64,000 nucleotides of DNA from positions 20,613-84,612 of the forward strand of contig CALVNS010000008.1 of the NCBI GenBank assembly GCA_944349855.1, written 5' to 3'. This DNA comes from an uncultured Eubacteriales bacterium. Lineage in GTDB: Bacteria > Bacillota > Clostridia > Christensenellales > Aristaeellaceae. Both the position numbers and the translations under genes were made by a program. Within the stretch, counting starts at the first letter, position 1. The number at the start of each line of letters is the position of its first letter. Below the pieces are notes generated by a model that was not told where the DNA came from, did not search any database, and was given only the letters and a program-made list of their open reading frames with translations. Shown in pieces: positions 43,816-55,432 of this stretch.

Positions 43816-44715
43816 ATGCTCAGATACACGGTCAAACGCGTACTGCTGGCCCTGGTCACCATCTTCATCATCGCCGCCATCACGTTCTTTGCGATGAACG
43901 CGATTCCCGGCGGCCCGTTTGAGGCCGAAAAGGCGCCGGACCCCGCCGTGCAGGCCGTGCTTGAGGCGCGCTTCAACCTGGATAAGCCCGTATGGCAACA
44001 GTTCTTCCTGTACCTGGAGGGCCTGCTGCACGGGGACTTTGGCATCTCGCTGAAGACGGGGCGCGACATCTTCGTGACGATCATGGATTCGTTCTCCATC
44101 TCCGCGCGGCTGGGCGGCATGGCCATCGCGCTGGCGGTGGTGGGCGGGCTGGCGCTCGGCTCGGTGGCTGCGCTGATGCGCAACCGCTGGCCGGACCGGG
44201 TGATCATCTTCACGACGACGCTGTGCGTGGCGGTGCCCAGCTTCGTGCTGGCCACGCTGCTGCTGCTGGTGTTCTGCCTGCGCCTGGGCTGGGTGCAGGT
44301 GTGGTCGACCACGTCGCAGAGCTATCTGCTGCCGGTGCTGTCCCTGGCGCTGTACCCGATGTCCTACATCACGCGCCTGACCAAGTCGAGCATGCTGGAC
44401 GTGCTCGGGCAGGACTACATCCGCACGGCGCGGGCCAAGGGCGTGCGCGAACAGCTGGTCATCTTCAAGCACGCGCTGATCCCCGTCATCACGTACGTGG
44501 GCCCGATGACGGCCTACATCCTGACCGGCAGCCTGGTGGTGGAGACGGTGTTCACCATCGGCGGCCTGGGCACGCAGTTCGTGACGGGCATCACCAATCG
44601 CGACTACCCGATGATCATGGGCACGACGATCTTCCTGGCCGTGCTGATGGTCATCATGACGCTGATCAGCGACCTGGTGTACAAGCTCGTGGATCCGAAG
44701 ATCACGTTCGACTGA
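43816..44715 (+). CDS. oppB: Oligopeptide ABC transporter permease
   Basis: A 299-residue OppB/DppB-type permease. The N-terminal segment RYTVKRVLLALVTIFIIAAITFF and the following AIPGGPF are diagnostic, as are DFGISLKTGRD, LPVLSLALYPMSYITRLTKSSMLDVLGQDYIRTARAKG and the VVETVFTIGGLGTQF block near the end. AAGGGA precedes the ATG. It is the first of oppBCDF, importing short peptides with the binding protein encoded at the operon end. Confidence 0.92.
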   Translation: MLRYTVKRVLLALVTIFIIAAITFFAMNAIPGGPFEAEKAPDPAVQAVLEARFNLDKPVWQQFFLYLEGLLHGDFGISLKTGRDIFVTIMDSFSISARLGGMAIALAVVGGLALGSVAALMRNRWPDRVIIFTTTLCVAVPSFVLATLLLLVFCLRLGWVQVWSTTSQSYLLPVLSLALYPMSYITRLTKSSMLDVLGQDYIRTARAKGVREQLVIFKHALIPVITYVGPMTAYILTGSLVVETVFTIGGLGTQFVTGITNRDYPMIMGTTIFLAVLMVIMTLISDLVYKLVDPKITFD

Positions 44716-44729
44716 CGGGAGGAAGACGG

Positions 44730-45809
44730 ATGAAAAAGTTAGGAAACGACAAGGTGCCCAAGCAGCGCCTGTTGAGCATGCAGGTGGACCTGAGCATGTT
44801 CGAGCCCGCCACCGACGAGGAAAAGCGCCAGCAGGACGTGATGCGCGAGTCGACGACGTTCTTCCGCGACGGCATGCGCAAGCTGTTCCGGAATCCGCTG
44901 GCCGTGCTCAGCCTGGTGATCCTGGGCGTGATCCTGCTGACGATCCTCTTCGCGCCGCTGATCTGCCCCTATGGCTACGCGCAGATGGTCACGGTCAACG
45001 GCACGCGCGACAAGACGGCCAAGAACCTGGCCCCGTTCACCTACTCGAAGCTGGAGCAGGAGGCCATCGACGAGGGCGCGTTCATCTTCCCGCACATCTT
45101 CGGCACAGACGAGCTGTGCCGCGACTACTTCATCCGCGTGGTCTACGGCGCGCGCGTGTCGCTGGCGGTCGGCCTGTTCGCGTCGATCATCGTGCTCATC
45201 ATCGGCCTGCTGTACGGCTCCATCTCGGGCTACGTGGGCGGGCGCACCGACATGATCATGATGCGCGTGGTCGACATCATCGCCTCGCTGCCCGACACGC
45301 TGATGGTCATCCTGCTGTCCGTCGTGCTGGATCAGGTGCTGGGCACCGCGCTGCAGGGCACGGTGCTGGCCAGCGTGGGCAACAACATGCTCAGTCTGTT
45401 CATCGTGTTCGGCCTGCTGTACTGGGTGAGCATGGCGCGCCTGGTGCGCGGTCAGATCCTGTCGATCAAGCACAACGAGTACGTGCTGGCCGCGCGCGCA
45501 CTGGGCGCCAAGCCCCGGCGCATCATCAAAAAGCACATCCTGCCCAACTGCATCAGCGTCATCTTCATCTCCATGGCGCTGCAGATCCCCTCGGCGATCT
45601 TCACGGAGAGCTTCCTGTCCTTCATCGGCCTGGGCGTGCAGGCGCCCATGCCCAGCCTGGGCTCGCTGGCCAACAACGCGCGCGGCAGCCTGCAGAGCTA
45701 TCCGTGGAAGCTTCTCTTCCCCGCGGCGAGCATCTGCCTGATCGTGCTGTCCTTCAACCTGCTGGGCGATGGCCTGCGCGACGCCTTCGACCCGAAGCTG
45801 AGGAGGTGA
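44730..45809 (+). CDS. oppC: Oligopeptide ABC transporter permease
   Basis: A 359-residue OppC/DppC-type permease with a long cytoplasmic N-terminus (about 60 residues), a first membrane segment in LAVLSLVILGVILLTILFAPL and an extended external loop after it. FGTDELCRDYFIRVVYGARVSLAVGL and LAARALGAKPRRIIKKHILPN mark the family; the latter is the ATPase contact. GGAGGAAG precedes the ATG at 44730, 15 bp after oppB. Confidence 0.92.
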   Translation: MKKLGNDKVPKQRLLSMQVDLSMFEPATDEEKRQQDVMRESTTFFRDGMRKLFRNPLAVLSLVILGVILLTILFAPLICPYGYAQMVTVNGTRDKTAKNLAPFTYSKLEQEAIDEGAFIFPHIFGTDELCRDYFIRVVYGARVSLAVGLFASIIVLIIGLLYGSISGYVGGRTDMIMMRVVDIIASLPDTLMVILLSVVLDQVLGTALQGTVLASVGNNMLSLFIVFGLLYWVSMARLVRGQILSIKHNEYVLAARALGAKPRRIIKKHILPNCISVIFISMALQIPSAIFTESFLSFIGLGVQAPMPSLGSLANNARGSLQSYPWKLLFPAASICLIVLSFNLLGDGLRDAFDPKLRR

Positions 45810-45814
45810 CGCGC

Positions 45815-46812
<998 letters not shown>

Positions 46813-46816
<4 letters not shown>

Positions 46817-47778
46817 GCGAGCATCTGCTTGAGGTCAAGGATTTGAAGCAGCACTTCCCCGTGCGCACAGGCTTCATGAAGAAGACGATGCTCAAGGCGG
46901 TGGACGGCGTGTCCTTCTGCATCGACGAGGGCGAGACGCTCGGCCTGGTGGGCGAGTCGGGCTGCGGCAAGACGACCGTGGGCCGCACGATCCTGCGCCT
47001 GTATGAGCCCACGGGCGGCGAGGTGCGCTACAAGGGCAACCTGATCACCCGGGACAACATCGAGCAGTACCGCCGGGAGATGCAGATCGTCTTTCAGGAT
47101 CCGTACTCCTCGCTCAACCCGCGCATGACGGTCGCCGATATCGTCGGCGAGCCGCTGGACATCCACCACCTGTACAAGACAAAGGCCGAGCGCCAGGAGA
47201 AGATCGTGCGCCTGCTGGACCTGGTCGGGCTCAACAGCGACCATGCCCGCCGCTACGCGCACGAGTTCTCCGGCGGCCAGCGCCAGCGCATCGGCATTGC
47301 GCGCGCGCTGGCGGTGGGCCCGCGCTTCATCGTCTGCGACGAGCCGGTCTCCGCGCTGGACGTGTCCATCCAGGCGCAGATCATCAACACGTTTGAGGAG
47401 CTGCAGGAGCGCCTGGGCATCGCGTATCTGTTCATCGCGCACGACCTGCTCGTCGTGCAGCACATGAGCCGGCGCATCGCGGTCATGTACCTGGGCCGCA
47501 TCGTCGAAAGCGCGCCCTCCGACGAGATCATCGACCGCCCGATCCATCCCTACATGCAGTCGTTGATCTCCGCCATCCCGATCCCCGATCCGGATACGGC
47601 GCGCGCGCGCCATCGCATCCCGCTGGAGGGCGATGTGCCCAGCCCGCTCAACATGCCCAGCGGCTGCGCGTTCCGCACCCGCTGCCGCTATGCGACCGAG
47701 CAGTGCGCGCGCGAGTGCCCCGCACTGCGCGAGACGGGCGACGGCCACTTCGTGGCCTGCTGGCATCCGCAGGCCTGA
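46813..47778 (+). CDS. oppF: Oligopeptide ABC transporter ATP-binding protein
   Basis: A 321-residue ABC ATPase, partner of OppD. Walker [23 protein letters not shown], signature FSGGQRQR, Walker [11 protein letters not shown] and H-loop AHDLLVVQH are present, and the C-terminal [15 protein letters not shown] domain ends the protein. The GTG start in GTGA overlaps the oppD stop, with GGGAGGCG before it. Confidence 0.93.
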
Positions 47779-47841
47779 GCGTCTATCCGCCGCGCGGCCC
47801 TGCCGGGCGGTCGAGATAAGAAAAACTAGGAGGTCAACCAC

Positions 47842-49528
47842 ATGAAGAAATTGCTGTCCGTGTTGATGGCCGTGCTGATGCTGGCGTCCTGCTTCAGCGT
47901 CGCGCTGGCCGACGAGGGCTCCGGAGCCCGACTGGACGGAATTCGACGCCCTGATCGCGCAGATCAAGGCCGAGACCGATTTCGTCGAGCGCGAGGCCCT
48001 GATGCACCAGGCCGAGGACATCCTGATGGAGACCGGCTGCCTGCTGCCCGTCTACTACTACAACGACATCTACATGATGAAGCCGACGGTGGAGGGCTTC
48101 TACGCCAATCTGTACGGCACGAAGTTCTTCCAGTATGCCTCCAACGGCGATTCGACCACCCTGCACCTGCAGCTGGCCAGTGAGCCGGATAAGCTCGACC
48201 CGGCGCTCAACAGCAGCGTGGACGGCGCGTGTCTGGCGGCGGCCGGCTTTGGCGGCCTGTACACGTACGACGCCAACGGCCAGCAGGTGCCGAACCTGGC
48301 CGAGAGCTACACCGTCTCCGACGACGGCCTGACCTACACCTTCACCATGAAGGACGGCCTGCTCTGGTCCAATGGCGATCCGCTGACCGCCAAGGACTTT
48401 GAGTACTCCTGGAAGCGCGCCGCTAGCACCGCGACCGCGGCGGACTACTCCTACATGTTCAACGGCATCGAGGGCTACCCGGACAACCTGAACGTCACCG
48501 CCTCCGAGGACGGCAAGACGCTGACCGTCGTGCTGACCGCGCCGTGCGCGTACTTCCTGGATCTGGCCGCGTTCCCGACGTTCTTTGCCGTGCATCAGGC
48601 GAGCGTCGAGGGCGCCGAGGGCTACCTGGCTGAGGACGGCTCCATCGCCAATCCCGGCGCGTGGGCGCTGGAGGCGGGCTTCGTCTCCTGCGGACCGTTC
48701 ATGCTCACCGAGTGGAACCACAACGAGTCCATGGTCTACGAAAAGAACCCGAACTACTGGGATGCCGAGAACGTGAAGCTGGGGCGCCTGGAGTTCATGC
48801 TCTCCGACGACGCGACGGCCATCTATGCGGCCTATCAGGCGGGCGACCTGGACTTCATCGACACCGTGCCCACGGACGAGATCCAGGGCCTGATCGACAG
48901 CGAGAACCCCGAGTTCTACATCGTGGACAACCTGGGCACCTACTACGTGTGCTTCAACATCAAGTCGCCGCTCTTTGACGGCAAGACCGTCGAGCAGGCC
49001 AATGCGATGCGCAAGGCGTTCGGCATGCTGGTCGACCGTCAGTACATCGTCGACACCGTCGGCCAGACCGGCCAGGAGGTCGCTACGACCTTCATCCCCG
49101 CGGGCATGGCGGATGGCCACGGCGGCGTGTTCAAGGCCGATGACGACGCCTACACCTACCCGGTCGACGGCGGCTACTACTCGCCCGAAGTGGACGTCGA
49201 GGGCGCGGTCGAGCTGCTCAAGAGCGCGGGCTTCGAGTTCGACGCGAACAACATGCTCTCCGCCTCCACGCCGATCACCTTCGAGTACCTGACCAACACC
49301 GATGACGGCCACCAGGCGATAGCCGAGTGCATCCAGCAGGATCTGGCGGTCGTGGGCATCAACATGACGATCAAGAGCATCGACTGGAACGTGTTCCTCA
49401 ACGAGCGCAAGGCCGGCAACTACGACATCGCGCGCAACGGCTGGCTCGCGGACTTCAACGATCCGATCAACATGCTTGAGATGTGGACGACCGATTCGGG
49501 CAACAACGACGTGCAGTTTGGCCGCTAA
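47842..49528 (+). pseudogene. oppA: Oligopeptide-binding protein gene with permuted order and a frame break (oppA-like)
   Basis: The region encodes every part of one OppA/DppA-type binding protein, but in changed order. A normal signal peptide (MKKLLSVLMAVLMLASCFSVALA, from 47842) is followed after about 80 bp by a change of frame. The second frame, from about 47921, starts with EPDWTEFDALIAQIKAETD through GTKFFQYA (to 48139), which is the usual C-terminal segment of this family. It continues without stop into TLHLQLASEPDKLDPALNSS, the usual mature N-terminus, and ends at NNDVQFGR (49528), exactly where the C-terminal segment would normally follow. A terminator comes next. It could be a broken gene, a real circular permutation with a one-base error, or an assembly chimera. 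It follows oppF by 63 bp. Confidence 0.75.
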
Positions 49529-49544
49529 GACGGCACCCCAAAAC

Positions 49545-49576
49545 GGGACATGGCCTGCGCCATGCCCTGTTTTTTT
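49545..49576 (+). terminator. Terminator of the opp operon
   Basis: GGGACATGGC and GCCATGCCC arms, followed by seven T, 17 bp past the stop of the permuted oppA. Confidence 0.85.
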
Positions 49577-51193: not shown

Positions 51194-54100
51194 TCAGTAG
51201 TTCGTGCCGTACAGGGCGTTTTGCGTCTTGCGTCCGGCGATGCCGTCGACCGCCAGGCCGTGGTCGCGCTGGAACTCCTTGACCGCCGCGTACGTCAGAT
51301 CGCCGTAGATGCCGTCGACGTAGCCGGTGCGGTAGTAGCCCTCGCCCTTGAGCGCCTGCTGCAGGCGGGTGACGGCCGCGCCCTTGCTGCCATAGTGCAG
51401 GTACACGTAGCCGACGCTCGACCCGCTGGAGTTGTTGGCGATCGCGCCGGAGCCGAAGAGCACGGTCTGCGTATTCACATCCGCCTCGCCGGTGGCATGG
51501 ATGCCGTTGCGGGACTGGAAGCGGCGCACCGCGCTCTGCGTGGCGCTGCCGTAGATGCCGTCGAGCGAGCCGGAGTAGTAGCCCAGGGCCGCCAGGCGGC
51601 TCTGCAGGCGGGTGACGGCGCTGCCGCGGTCACCGCGCTCGAGGTTTACATAGCTGGTGGTGTAGCTGTTCACCGGCAGCGCAGCCGCGCTGAAGAGCAC
51701 CTCCTGCGTGTAGCTGTCCGCCGTGCCGGTCTGCGTCAGGTTGTTGATGCGCTGGAACGCGCGAACCGCGCTCTGCGTGCCCACGCCGTAGATGCCGTCC
51801 ACGGAGATGGTGTAGTAGCCCAGCTCGCGCAGGCGCTGCTGCAGGCGGGTGACGGCGCTGCCGCGATCGCCGCGCACGAGCACCGGGTAGAGCGTCGGAG
51901 TGGAGCTGTCGTAGGGACGCGCAGAGACGCTGTAGAGCTTCGTCTGCGTATCCTTGCCCGCGATGCCATCGACCGCCAGGCCGTTGACGCGCTGGAATTC
52001 GCGCACCGCGGCCTCGGTGGCGTAGTCATACCGGGCGGTCAGGTTGACCGGATAGCCCAGCGCGGCCAGGCGCTCCTGCAGGTTGAGCACGACCTGTCCG
52101 CGGCTGCCCTTGTAGCGGCTGAGCGTGAGGTAGGTCGGCTTCTGGGTAAGCTTCTCAACGACGATGTCGGTGGAGACGGTCTGGTTCTCGCCATAGGTGA
52201 CCGTCACGCGCACGACCGCGCTGACGCTCTGCGTGCGGGGCAGCGGGATGCGGAAGACGCCGTCGGCGCCCGCGTTCTGGCTGTAGACGTACTGCGTGCT
52301 GCCGTAGGAGGTGGAGACGGTGACCTTCAGGTTCGGGGTGGTCTTGCCGATGACGACGAGCGAGTCGACGTAGAGCTTATCGACCTGCAGAGAGGGCGTC
52401 TCCACGGCGGGCGCGGGCACGACGATGTCGGCCGCGTAGTTCGCCTGGTTGCCCACGCCTGCGCTCACGTACTGCACGACGAGCGTCTTGTACGTGCCGG
52501 AAACCAGGCCGTCGAACACGACGGTATAGCTGCCGTTCGCATCCACGGCGATGCCGCGGGTGACGGTCTTGTTATCCGGCGTGAGCATGGAGGCGACGAC
52601 GCGCTCACCGGCCTTGGCGGTACCGATGACGGTGACCTTGCCGACCTCCGGCGTCACGGTGGTGATGGTGATGTCCGTGGCCGTCACGGGCGCGGTGACC
52701 GTCACGGCGGCGTTCCACGTCGCGGACGCGCCGTTGGACGGATCGGTGTACTGCACGACGATGTTGTTGTAGTCGCCCGCGGGCACATTCGTCACCGTCA
52801 GGGAGAAGCTGCCGTTCGCGGCGGCAGTGGCCGTGCCGGTCGCGCCGCCCACAGTCGCCTGCACGGCGGCGGTCGGCTTGGCTGTGCCGGTCAGGACGAC
52901 CTGGCCCACGCCGCCCGTAGCGGTCTGGAGCTTGATGTCCACGGTCGTGGGGGGCACGGGGATATTGACGGTCGTACTTGCGGTGCGGCCCGGATCGTCC
53001 TTGGAGGTGACGACGACCTGCATGCCGTCGCCTTCGCCGACGACGTACTCGGTCAGGGTGTACAGGCCGTTGGTGTCGACCTGGGCCTCAAACGTCGCGG
53101 TCGTGCCGATCTTGACCTCGAGCTTTTCGTTTGCGTTGCCCGCGCCGCTGACGGTGACCTTCTGCGTCCCGGCGTCATAGCTGACGTTGACCGTCAGCGT
53201 GGTCACGCGGGGCGTGACGGTCACGACGTGGCCGCTCAGCTCCTGAACGTTGGGCGTGCGCGCACCATCCTCCTCGACGCGCACATTCACGGTCAGGCTG
53301 CCGGTCTCCTTCACGGCGACCGACTGGCTGTACGCGCCGCTCTCGTCGGCCTGCGCGCTGGCGGTATAGGGCGTCTGGTTGCCGTTGACGGTCAGCGTGA
53401 TGTTCAGCTTCGCGCCCGCGGCCGCCGTGCCCGAGACGGTGATGACCTCCTCGCCGCCGAGCGCGTCGACGGTGATCGGGGTGACGTCGGGCTGCGGGGC
53501 GGTGACGGTCACGGGCGTCTGCCACGTGGCGCCGTTCCCGTTGGCCGTGTCGGTATACTGCACGGAGATCTCATTATAGGTGTTGGCCGGGACATTCGCA
53601 ATCGTCAGGGTGAACGCGCCGGTCGCATCGGCCGTGGCCGTGCCGGTGGCGCCGCCCACGGTCGCGGTGACCTCTGTCTCCGCCTTTGCCGTGCCCTTGA
53701 CGGTGATCTGGCCCTCGCCGCCCGTCACCTCCGAAAGGGCGATGTCCACCGTCGTGGGCGCAGCGGGATCGGGGATCACCAGCGTTGCCGTGGCCGCCTG
53801 CACGGACGCGTCATCCTTGTAGGCGACGGAGACGCTCACGCTGCCGGTCATGCCATTCGCGGATTCATTGATGCTGTACAGGCCATCCGATCCAATCTGG
53901 CCCTCGTAGGTCTTTTCGCCCACCTGGATGGTGATGTTCTGGCCCGGCTCGCCCGCGCCGGCGATGGTGAACTTGCCCGCCGCCGCGTCATAGGTCGCCT
54001 CGGTGATCGTCAGGGGGCTCAGGTTCAGCATGGACGGGCCCTGCTGCGGCTCCTGCGCGGCTGCCTGGACCGTCACGGAAACCGTCTGGGAGGCAAAGTT

Positions 54101-55432
54101 CGAGCTGTTGCCGACCTCCTCGACCCAGACCTCCACCGCCACCTGGCCGGACTTGCCGGGCAGCGCAACCGTCAGGCTGAAGGCGCCGTCCGCGCCCACG
54201 GGATGTCCCTTGGATTCGAACGCCTGGCCGTCGACGGAGCCGGTGATATAGACCGTTCCGTTCGCAGCCGCCGTGCCGGTGATCTGCACGGACTCCGTGC
54301 CGCCGGAAATACCGGTGATCACCACGGGCGTGCTCGGCATACCGTTCGAGTCGCTCGCCGTGCCCGCGTTCGGGTCGCTCACGACCGCGTTCGGGTCACT
54401 CATGCCCGCGTTCGGGTCGCTCGCCGTGCCCGCGTTCGGGTCGCTCGCCGTGCCCGCGTTCGGGTCGCTCACGCCCGCGTTCGGGTCGCTCGCCGTGCCC
54501 GCGTTCGGGTCGCTCACGACCGCGTTCGGGTCGCTCGCCGGAACGGTCACCACGCCGCCATCATTGGCAAACGTGCTCATCTCCGGTGCGTCCGCATAGC
54601 AGACGTGCACGCGATAGTCGTTGGGCGTCATGTCGGTAAACGTCGTAGAGAACACGCCGCCGGAGATGGTCTCAGTGTGCGCGACGCTGGTGGCGGCATC
54701 GCCCTTGTAGATGGTGATGACGACCTTGCGGCCTTCCTCGCCCTGGCCCATCACGTAGATGTCCTTCGTGCCGGACAGGCTCGCCTGCACGGACGTGAGG
54801 GGCGTCGTCGGCACGGTCACCACCGGTTCGTTGACCACCGGTTCGCTGACCACCGGTTCGCTGACCACCGGCTCGCTGACCGCCGGCTCGTTGCCCGAGC
54901 TGGCTTCCTGCGCCCTGGCGGCGGCATCGACGACGACGTAGTTCAGCGGCTCCAGGTCGGGCGTGACGGCCTGCACGGCCTTCAGGCTGCCCAGCTTATA
55001 CGCTGCCTCCACGCGATAGACGCCGTCGGCCAGGTCGGTAAACGTCGTCACAAACGTGCCCTTGGACGTGGTCGTGCGCTTGATGGCGTGGGGGTTAAAC
55101 GTCCCCTGGATGCGCACGCCGTCCTTGTCGCACAGCCACACGTTGACGGCATGGCCGGGCTCGCACGTACCCGTGACGAGCAGGTCGTTGGACAGGCCGT
55201 TCTCGTCCGGGACGAGCTGCATGCGCACCTGGGAGATGGGCGTCGTCGGCTCGGTCTCCGGCGTATTGAGTTCAGTTTCAGACGCCGTCTTGCCGCCGTT
55301 CTCTTGTGTAGTGCCAGCCTGGGAGGGCGTTGCGCTCATCCCCGTTGCCATGGCAGGCGTCAAGGCGCAGGCGCTCATCAGCATGGCCGCGAGCAGCAGC
55401 GCCAACAGCTTTCTCATTTTCCTTCTCATCAT
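51194..55432 (-). CDS. Large repetitive cell-surface protein with four peptidoglycan-binding domains
   Basis: A 1,412-residue exported protein. The signal sequence MMRRKMRKLLALLLAAMLMSACALTPAMA could be cut by signal peptidase I after AMA or, less likely, be a lipoprotein at Cys22. Residues about 180-203 are EPVV repeats; about 298-362 are SDPNAG/GTASDPNAG repeats, both linker-like. From about 400 to 1090 run beta-sandwich (Big-like) domains, including two very similar copies, each containing TVGGATGTAT, and two related AGAG/SGAG-type modules. From about 1100 to the end there are four peptidoglycan_binding_1 domains (RGDRGSAVTRLQ and GSKGAAVTRLQ motifs, DGIYG, AVxxFQ). It probably binds the wall or spore cortex through the C-terminus and displays the rest. 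GGAGGG precedes the start. Confidence 0.88.
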   Translation of the reverse strand: MMRRKMRKLLALLLAAMLMSACALTPAMATGMSATPSQAGTTQENGGKTASETELNTPETEPTTPISQVRMQLVPDENGLSNDLLVTGTCEPGHAVNVWLCDKDGVRIQGTFNPHAIKRTTTSKGTFVTTFTDLADGVYRVEAAYKLGSLKAVQAVTPDLEPLNYVVVDAAARAQEASSGNEPAVSEPVVSEPVVSEPVVNEPVVTVPTTPLTSVQASLSGTKDIYVMGQGEEGRKVVITIYKGDAATSVAHTETISGGVFSTTFTDMTPNDYRVHVCYADAPEMSTFANDGGVVTVPASDPNAVVSDPNAGTASDPNAGVSDPNAGTASDPNAGTASDPNAGMSDPNAVVSDPNAGTASDSNGMPSTPVVITGISGGTESVQITGTAAANGTVYITGSVDGQAFESKGHPVGADGAFSLTVALPGKSGQVAVEVWVEEVGNSSNFASQTVSVTVQAAAQEPQQGPSMLNLSPLTITEATYDAAAGKFTIAGAGEPGQNITIQVGEKTYEGQIGSDGLYSINESANGMTGSVSVSVAYKDDASVQAATATLVIPDPAAPTTVDIALSEVTGGEGQITVKGTAKAETEVTATVGGATGTATADATGAFTLTIANVPANTYNEISVQYTDTANGNGATWQTPVTVTAPQPDVTPITVDALGGEEVITVSGTAAAGAKLNITLTVNGNQTPYTASAQADESGAYSQSVAVKETGSLTVNVRVEEDGARTPNVQELSGHVVTVTPRVTTLTVNVSYDAGTQKVTVSGAGNANEKLEVKIGTTATFEAQVDTNGLYTLTEYVVGEGDGMQVVVTSKDDPGRTASTTVNIPVPPTTVDIKLQTATGGVGQVVLTGTAKPTAAVQATVGGATGTATAAANGSFSLTVTNVPAGDYNNIVVQYTDPSNGASATWNAAVTVTAPVTATDITITTVTPEVGKVTVIGTAKAGERVVASMLTPDNKTVTRGIAVDANGSYTVVFDGLVSGTYKTLVVQYVSAGVGNQANYAADIVVPAPAVETPSLQVDKLYVDSLVVIGKTTPNLKVTVSTSYGSTQYVYSQNAGADGVFRIPLPRTQSVSAVVRVTVTYGENQTVSTDIVVEKLTQKPTYLTLSRYKGSRGQVVLNLQERLAALGYPVNLTARYDYATEAAVREFQRVNGLAVDGIAGKDTQTKLYSVSARPYDSSTPTLYPVLVRGDRGSAVTRLQQRLRELGYYTISVDGIYGVGTQSAVRAFQRINNLTQTGTADSYTQEVLFSAAALPVNSYTTSYVNLERGDRGSAVTRLQSRLAALGYYSGSLDGIYGSATQSAVRRFQSRNGIHATGEADVNTQTVLFGSGAIANNSSGSSVGYVYLHYGSKGAAVTRLQQALKGEGYYRTGYVDGIYGDLTYAAVKEFQRDHGLAVDGIAGRKTQNALYGTNY
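54349..54545. repeat. Tandem SDPNA-encoding repeats inside the surface protein
   Basis: Units of 21-24 bp containing GCGTTCGGGTCGCTC recur about ten times and encode SDPNAG with GTA or VV spacers. A nearly identical pattern of short tandem copies could vary in length by slippage; a second, shorter set at about 54825-54895 encodes EPVV units. Confidence 0.85.

Follow-up and report, generated by a model that had tools for sequence, protein, structure and literature searches.

Natural circular permutations are usually presented as single curiosities. Among the binding proteins of ABC importers, TpMglB-2 (Tp0684) of Treponema pallidum, a glucose-binding protein of cluster B, is circularly permuted, and a 'cluster Bc' is proposed for it in the relevant passages of PMC4990184. 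Duplication, fusion and trimming are described for saposin/swaposin and the DNA methyltransferases in the corresponding section of a review (PMC3320104), where functional tandem-fusion intermediates are predicted for permutation by duplication. No published natural permutation in the OppA/SBP_bac_5 family was found in open-licence PMC papers. Two papers considered as prior cases, PMC2588589 and PMC2265533, were set aside, as their matching passages are unrelated.

The gene analysed here very probably encodes the binding protein that serves an oppBCDF peptide importer, and it belongs to a lineage in which this protein was circularly permuted long ago and has been under selection since, with the frame break of the present copy as a separate matter. 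Like the canonical OppA and DppE proteins (SBP_bac_5, PF00496; cluster C; 8are, 8ay0, 1ola), it displays full-length homology, although in two pieces, the same predicted fold and OppBCDF operon partners. In contrast to them, its last ~70 residues come first, its new ends lie in domain III and the native ends are joined. It shares with TpMglB-2 a natural circular permutation in an ABC-importer binding protein, whereas TpMglB-2, as far as its description in PMC4990184 extends, is a cluster B sugar binder of another fold class with another break in one lineage; the present family shows four breakpoints and more than one permuted lineage. The top sequence and fold matches of the present protein are cluster-C OppA-type proteins. 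The route of duplication, fusion and trimming would be common to it and to the saposin/swaposin and methyltransferase cases as outlined in PMC3320104, and one locus, L167, has the predicted tandem form; unlike those cases, it concerns a bacterial transport protein with apparently repeated independent events in one family. The repeated origins of the permutation in the OppA family are the surprising part.

The permuted gene of the window and its operon

The window, a stretch of 64,000 nucleotides from an uncultured bacterium of the Aristaeellaceae, lies within an 84.6-kb contig of a draft genome of 2.7 Mb in 99 contigs. The permuted gene is the last gene of the window's oppBCDF operon and is single-copy (Table 1). 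It opens with an ATG, preceded by AGGAGG, and a signal peptide (MKKLL...ALADEGS), the frame of which terminates at 48183 after 113 aa. In the frame displaced by +1 base, EPDWTEFDALIAQ...FFQYA continues stop-free into SNGDSTTLHLQLASEPDKLD... and thus through the remaining protein.

Table 1. Features of the operon and of the permuted gene (window coordinates)
Feature	Position	Strand	Basis
oppB, permease (Opp3B/OppB-like)	43816..44715	+	NCBIfam NF045471 3.3e-85, PF00528
oppC, permease	44730..45809	+	NCBIfam NF045475 1.5e-91, PF00528 + PF12911 OppC_N
oppD, ATPase	45815..46816	+	NCBIfam NF007010 7.5e-122, PF00005 + PF08352
oppF, ATPase, GTG start	46813..47778	+	NF008453 1.4e-117, NF011659 1.1e-116, PF00005 + PF08352
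Ribosome-binding site AGGAGG	47829..47834	+	Read in sequence
Frame 0: signal peptide with the start of the mature protein (MKKLLSVLMAVLMLASCFSVALADEGS)	47842..47922	+	Sequence; signal-like N-termini in relatives
Reading-frame change boundary, window genome	47915..47924	+	Relatives with intact gene stay in single frame
Canonical C-terminal segment, now first (P0002)	47921..48139	+	NCBIfam OppA PRK15104 positions 471-525
Junction of native C-terminus and native N-terminus (FFQYA-SNGDSTTLHLQ)	48125..48172	+	Junction alignment A1, 12 relatives
Canonical mature N-terminal and middle part, now second (P0001), ends NNDVQFGR-stop	48140..49528	+	PF00496; PRK15104 positions 44-466
Terminator-like hairpin and T run	49549..49571	+	Hairpin itself 49549-49564

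The OppA model PRK15104 (543 positions) is matched out of order by the two pieces. P0001 reaches position 367 of 368 in PF00496 with 285.5 bits (cut-off 32.4; 8.4e-85), and P0002 matches PRK15104 at E 1.3e-6 and PRK09755 at 3.2e-8, scores that lie far under the whole-protein cut-offs of both models, as expected of a piece of 73 residues. Profile and structure-sequence comparison agree that the canonical order, with N-terminal domain I first and the C-terminal segment last, is absent in the window protein. The original prediction had described a signal peptide followed by a frame change, a C-terminal segment placed first and joined to the mature N-terminal part with no stop between them, an end at NNDVQFGR and a terminator behind the gene, and all of these were recovered; the alignment of both frames to full OppA proteins that it proposed also gave two pieces in permuted order on PRK15104. 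Its claim that the break points match each other stands, with one small correction. The out-of-order matches to OppA and DppE abut, and the break points are therefore complementary on PRK15104 and DppE, but the nearest canonical relatives have ~26 extra residues where the two pieces would attach (487-512 in the reference L014), and the window lineage lacks these.

No second copy of the C-terminal segment was detected in the window's genome at E 0.001, nor any close copy of the remaining part, the next-best binding proteins there being 28-35% identical over aligned stretches; a tandem partner of the permuted gene was likewise not found in this genome. Further along the window, a 1412-aa putative exported protein is encoded on the minus strand (51194-55432); it includes an Ig-like (Big_6) stretch and carries four PG_binding_1 domains at its C-terminal end.

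The signal of the window copy is out of frame with the remaining protein, and the copy as sequenced would yield no exported full protein. The frame change, which is separate from the permutation, would stem from an error in sequencing or from a lesion of recent date. Since this copy is frame-broken, function is argued from its relatives. Among 104 unique open reading frames with the same breakpoint class as the window's gene (class C, see below), an in-frame signal-like N-terminus was recognized by a simple script in 101; the exceptions are the window copy, L159, in which the front is also interrupted, and L129, which has a long Ala/Glu-rich leader. In L129 (5236-7605, plus strand) this leader exceeds 200 residues of Ala/Glu repeats and occupies the same open frame ahead of the permuted protein. 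The script overlooked four members of other classes (A/B), L222, L199, L198 and L230, in which signal-like leaders begin with other start codons. By a simple pattern, a lipobox-like motif is present in 58 of the 101 signal-bearing class-C proteins. It is absent in the other 43, and their hosts are presumed to be single-membrane.

Distribution of the rearranged order, selection and fold

The same junctions had been proposed to be sought in independent genomes, and they occur there in a single frame in a congener, across the family and in an isolate, Eisenbergiella tayi DSM 26961 (L172). The congener carries the closest relative, which is 82-83% identical, lies on a 3.97-Mb contig and keeps the identical order in one frame behind a signal peptide. 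In the family survey, at least 57 of 308 genomes show a stop-free match from query residues ≤15 to ≥187, that is, past the junction. This count leaves out G231, where the match lies at the end of a contig and begins with residue 59, and ordinary proteins with matches barely crossing the joint (query starts 35-75). Besides the window's own locus, 28 of these 57 were read, and a 29th (L040) was classed. At the level of the order, permuted open reading frames with checked architecture exist in at least 16 of 395 genomes; the class gives at least 10 of 391 and the phylum at least 10 of 398. The three samples overlap, each contains the window's genome, and the figures, which cover the matches that were fetched, are floors. 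A named collection adds at least 80 loci, all 80 kept ones matching across the junction, from hosts that include Lachnospiraceae, Oscillospiraceae, Butyrivibrio and Blautia and are mostly metagenome bins. It can be seen that the rearranged order is common to many gut and rumen bacteria. Of the 77 named loci that could be classed, 66 have oppB-C-D-F upstream in the same orientation; 8 have fewer opp genes there, and the upstream flank is shorter than 1.5 kb in the last 3.

Several matches were rejected or set apart. G1401 has a match spanning the junction with an internal stop and was excluded from the counts. On a Phyllobacterium plasmid (NZ_CP088275.1, 101402-104653; L257), a junction-spanning tblastn match proved to be adjacent ordinary genes, and for this reason crossing matches were accepted only if they could be seen to lie in one open frame. 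This plasmid place was the only one covering 80% of the class B query among the matches listed for plasmid records (E 1e-40); the class A query gave none at that coverage among the matches listed at the same threshold. The adjacent ordinary oppA-like genes of the plasmid stand three in a row before oppB, counting the upstream one. In genome G272, two permuted binding-protein genes adjoin (L234:1000-4676, minus strand), the second ~57% identical to the window's protein. In genome G001, a second family member, 39% identical, is located ~9 kb from the permuted gene (C3:149239-150591, plus strand); its open frame is, at 961 aa, unusually long.

Comparison of the window copy with its congener gives a dN/dS (Nei-Gojobori) of 0.25 over 532 codons, with 0.25 in the first segment and 0.25 in the rest, indicating purifying selection on both pieces. 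An AlphaFold2 model of the window's permuted chain, built with 60 relatives, has a mean pLDDT of 93.5 and a pTM of 0.89, and around the joined ends (residues 61-80) the block means are 93 and 97. The best 23 Foldseek matches of this model are all OppA, DppE or MppA structures, and the predicted fold is that of cluster-C OppA. In a sequence-order structural alignment to S. typhimurium OppA (1ola, 517 residues), model residues 72-534 correspond to chain positions 1-442, leaving 71 leading residues of the model and 75 trailing residues of OppA unpaired. Such unpaired opposite ends are the mark of a permutation. The E. tayi protein is arranged similarly on the solved B. subtilis DppE (8ay0), with query 147-593 on chain 24-444 and query 71-134 on 449-512. 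In the GW..D motif, neither W508 nor D511 varies in any of the 61 aligned rows, and a role at the peptide N-terminus is suggested by analogy with W498/D501 of AliD, as given in the pertinent part of PMC11192437. Because the fold and the peptide-site motif (GW..DFNDP) are retained, the permuted protein would still bind peptides in the inter-lobe cleft and hand them to OppBC.

Breakpoint classes and number of origins

According to the opening point on a reference profile of 508 positions, built from 71 canonical-order proteins, 122 unique permuted open reading frames can be divided into four classes: C, the window's class, with 104, B with 13, A with 4 and D with 1. The breaks lie at ~267/268 (A), ~345/349 (B), ~435/437 (C) and ~468/471 (D), and all four classes join the native ends. 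With the exception of four class-C rows cut by contig ends (L072, L096, L098 and L108), 118 remain, and the pieces meet within 10 of the 508 profile positions in 113 of them. The five others are L069, L129, L146, L156 and L159, and the first piece of L129 is a spurious extension. L129 had been considered a duplication relic, with positions 289-435 seemingly present twice, and was rejected when the repeated part proved to be its low-complexity Ala/Glu-rich leader.

In S. typhimurium OppA, domain III is presumably formed by residues 271-486. On B. subtilis OppA (8are), the breaks fall at 287|294 for class A, 364|367 for class B and 483|489 for class D, where the second piece is under significance by phmmer, yet recovered by the profile; on DppE (8ay0) the class C break falls at 444|449. 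The domain limits applied here are those of BbOppA4 (4gl8), for which the corresponding passage of PMC5736914 gives residues 286-503 as domain III; on this chain, class A breaks after chain position 295 and class C after 455, with class B between. The class D opening appears to lie further along, near the end of domain III. The survey query A1 consists of the native C-terminal ~70 and N-terminal ~130 residues, and openings inside it are missed or partly seen; the missing domain II openings therefore carry no meaning.

The L223 type of class A was found at ≥40% identity in 13 of 61 genomes (G1024 and relatives), one of them a single-contig genome; five of the additional genomes among these were read as loci and have the identical break. 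For the L189 type of class B, a single genus provides 5 genomes, and the last piece ends at 347 in every one of them; in a sixth genome, from a different genus, the gene is cut by the contig. Classes other than C are present in the single-contig genomes G990, G704, G1226 and G1435.

A tree of 75 rows thinned by identity and 503 columns was computed with IQ-TREE (LG+C20), from which L093 and the canonical rows L004, L033 and L034 had been excluded beforehand. It requires 10 changes between canonical and permuted order, counts that carry no direction of gain or loss; the starred branches alone force 10, the bootstrap trees range from 10 to 10, and shuffled labels give a mean of 24.4. A single clade for all permuted rows is rejected by the AU test (2.8e-7), as are single clades for class C with L077/L078 and L184 (6.6e-4), class A when L204 is left out (3.9e-82) and class B when L018 is left out (8.9e-6), the groups having been set by breakpoint and the subsets picked after the tree was seen. 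The tree suggests six origins backed by at least two genomes each: the main class C, L077/L078, L199/L222, the L223 type, the L189 type and the L198-L230 group. The pairing of L077 with L078 has a support of only 97/59. Three more origins, L018, L204 and L092, would each be represented by one draft genome, and no second genome was found for them among 61, 81 and 60 genomes, respectively, source genome included.

The tenth change is L184 (1354-3111, plus strand; genome G967), a canonical order within the class-C clade at supports of 100/97 and 98/89. A tree placing it outside class C is not rejected (p-AU 0.122), and a reversal to canonical order is only suggestive. By eye, the linker of L184 (GKDTSNSSAPSWKEYDE) is similar to the leader of L155 (KSSEAAPDWEEYD), which is its permuted neighbour, as expected from a return via a tandem.

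Origin of the permutation and its meaning

In the rearranged protein, the native C-terminus at the end of domain I (lobe 1) is tied by a short turn to the native N-terminus at the start of domain I, and the chain opens anew in domain III (lobe 2), after NNDxQFG[RK]. An export signal or lipid tether would then leave from lobe 2, where it formerly left from lobe 1. The likeliest origin is a tandem duplication, followed by in-frame fusion and loss of the redundant ends, and permutation appears to have recurred among these proteins, with four opening points that lie within domain III or close to it. One open reading frame, L167, has 1307 codons and contains two permuted units, separated by an 86-residue linker, with an identity of 92% at the protein level and 88.5% at the DNA level. 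Its middle spans one complete canonical-order unit, and its source is one metagenome contig. This tandem repeats an already permuted unit, not a canonical one. L167 (5530-9453, plus strand; MAG RUG13631) also has PTE-rich and Ala/Val-rich linkers. The adjacent permuted paralogues of L234 indicate that tandem copies do arise.

The original prediction had named an assembly error and a decayed duplication beside a genuine circular permutation, and intact relatives, conserved operon position, purifying selection and the predicted OppA fold establish the last. An artefact, with reads from several oppA copies assembled in a false order, might be suspected in a draft of 99 contigs, and its probability is nevertheless close to nil: the genome contains neither another copy of the C-terminal segment nor a close copy of the rest, the order recurs on the congener's 3.97-Mb contig, the isolate E. 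tayi and dozens of other assemblies share it, and the other classes occur in the four single-contig genomes. Slightly less remote, and still very improbable, is a local decayed tandem duplication that left two adjacent oppA remnants in permuted order by chance. The broken frame at the gene front would agree with it, but the relatives keep the order intact, both segments share the same low dN/dS, and the pieces sum to one full-length protein. Decay concerns at most the frame of the window's copy.

Regarding the route, an origin without tandem duplication, by gene fission and refusion or by cut-and-paste of the C-terminal segment from a paralogue, is doubtful while retaining an appreciable chance. 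The surveyed open reading frames include no tandem of canonical units from which class C could have descended directly, and the authors of the TpMglB-2 study raise acquisition from a different gene in one passage of their paper (PMC4990184). On the other side, the complementary pieces in every class are as duplication with trimming predicts, the permuted-unit tandem L167 exists, and adjacent paralogous copies occur in L234 and on the Phyllobacterium plasmid. It is unlikely, and clearly more so than fission or transfer, that the permuted order is the older one and that canonical order was repeatedly restored after fewer independent gains. The undirected change counts would allow this, and the canonical L184 inside the class-C clade would fit it, though its placement outside is not rejected. 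Four distinct opening points, however, require several events, and regaining identical canonical ends from differing openings is less likely than repeated opening. Additionally, the best stretch crosses the joined ends in 0 of 60 solved chains among the matches listed, so that canonical order looks like the norm.

A broader view is that the OppA-type (cluster C) family is a hot spot of circular permutation, with about nine re-openings at four sites, at least one return (L184) via an L167-like tandem, and a tether face on which selection may act; we consider this view evenly balanced between being right and wrong. The ends of domain I would be near enough for tandem duplicates to fuse in frame, and with each re-opening the export signal or lipid tether would come to leave from a different face.

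The rearrangement also exposes a blind spot of annotation. The Pfam 'Middle' model of the family ends right at the cut of the window lineage, and consequently a domain search shows nothing odd. One large and well-understood transport family contains several apparently independent permutations with different opening points, together with a fused tandem, what may be a reversal, and near relatives in canonical order for comparison. Such variety in one family makes possible a direct test of how permutations originate and whether relocation of the tether alters transport. If the hot-spot view is true, selection may use the shift of the tether to set how the binding protein meets the permease.
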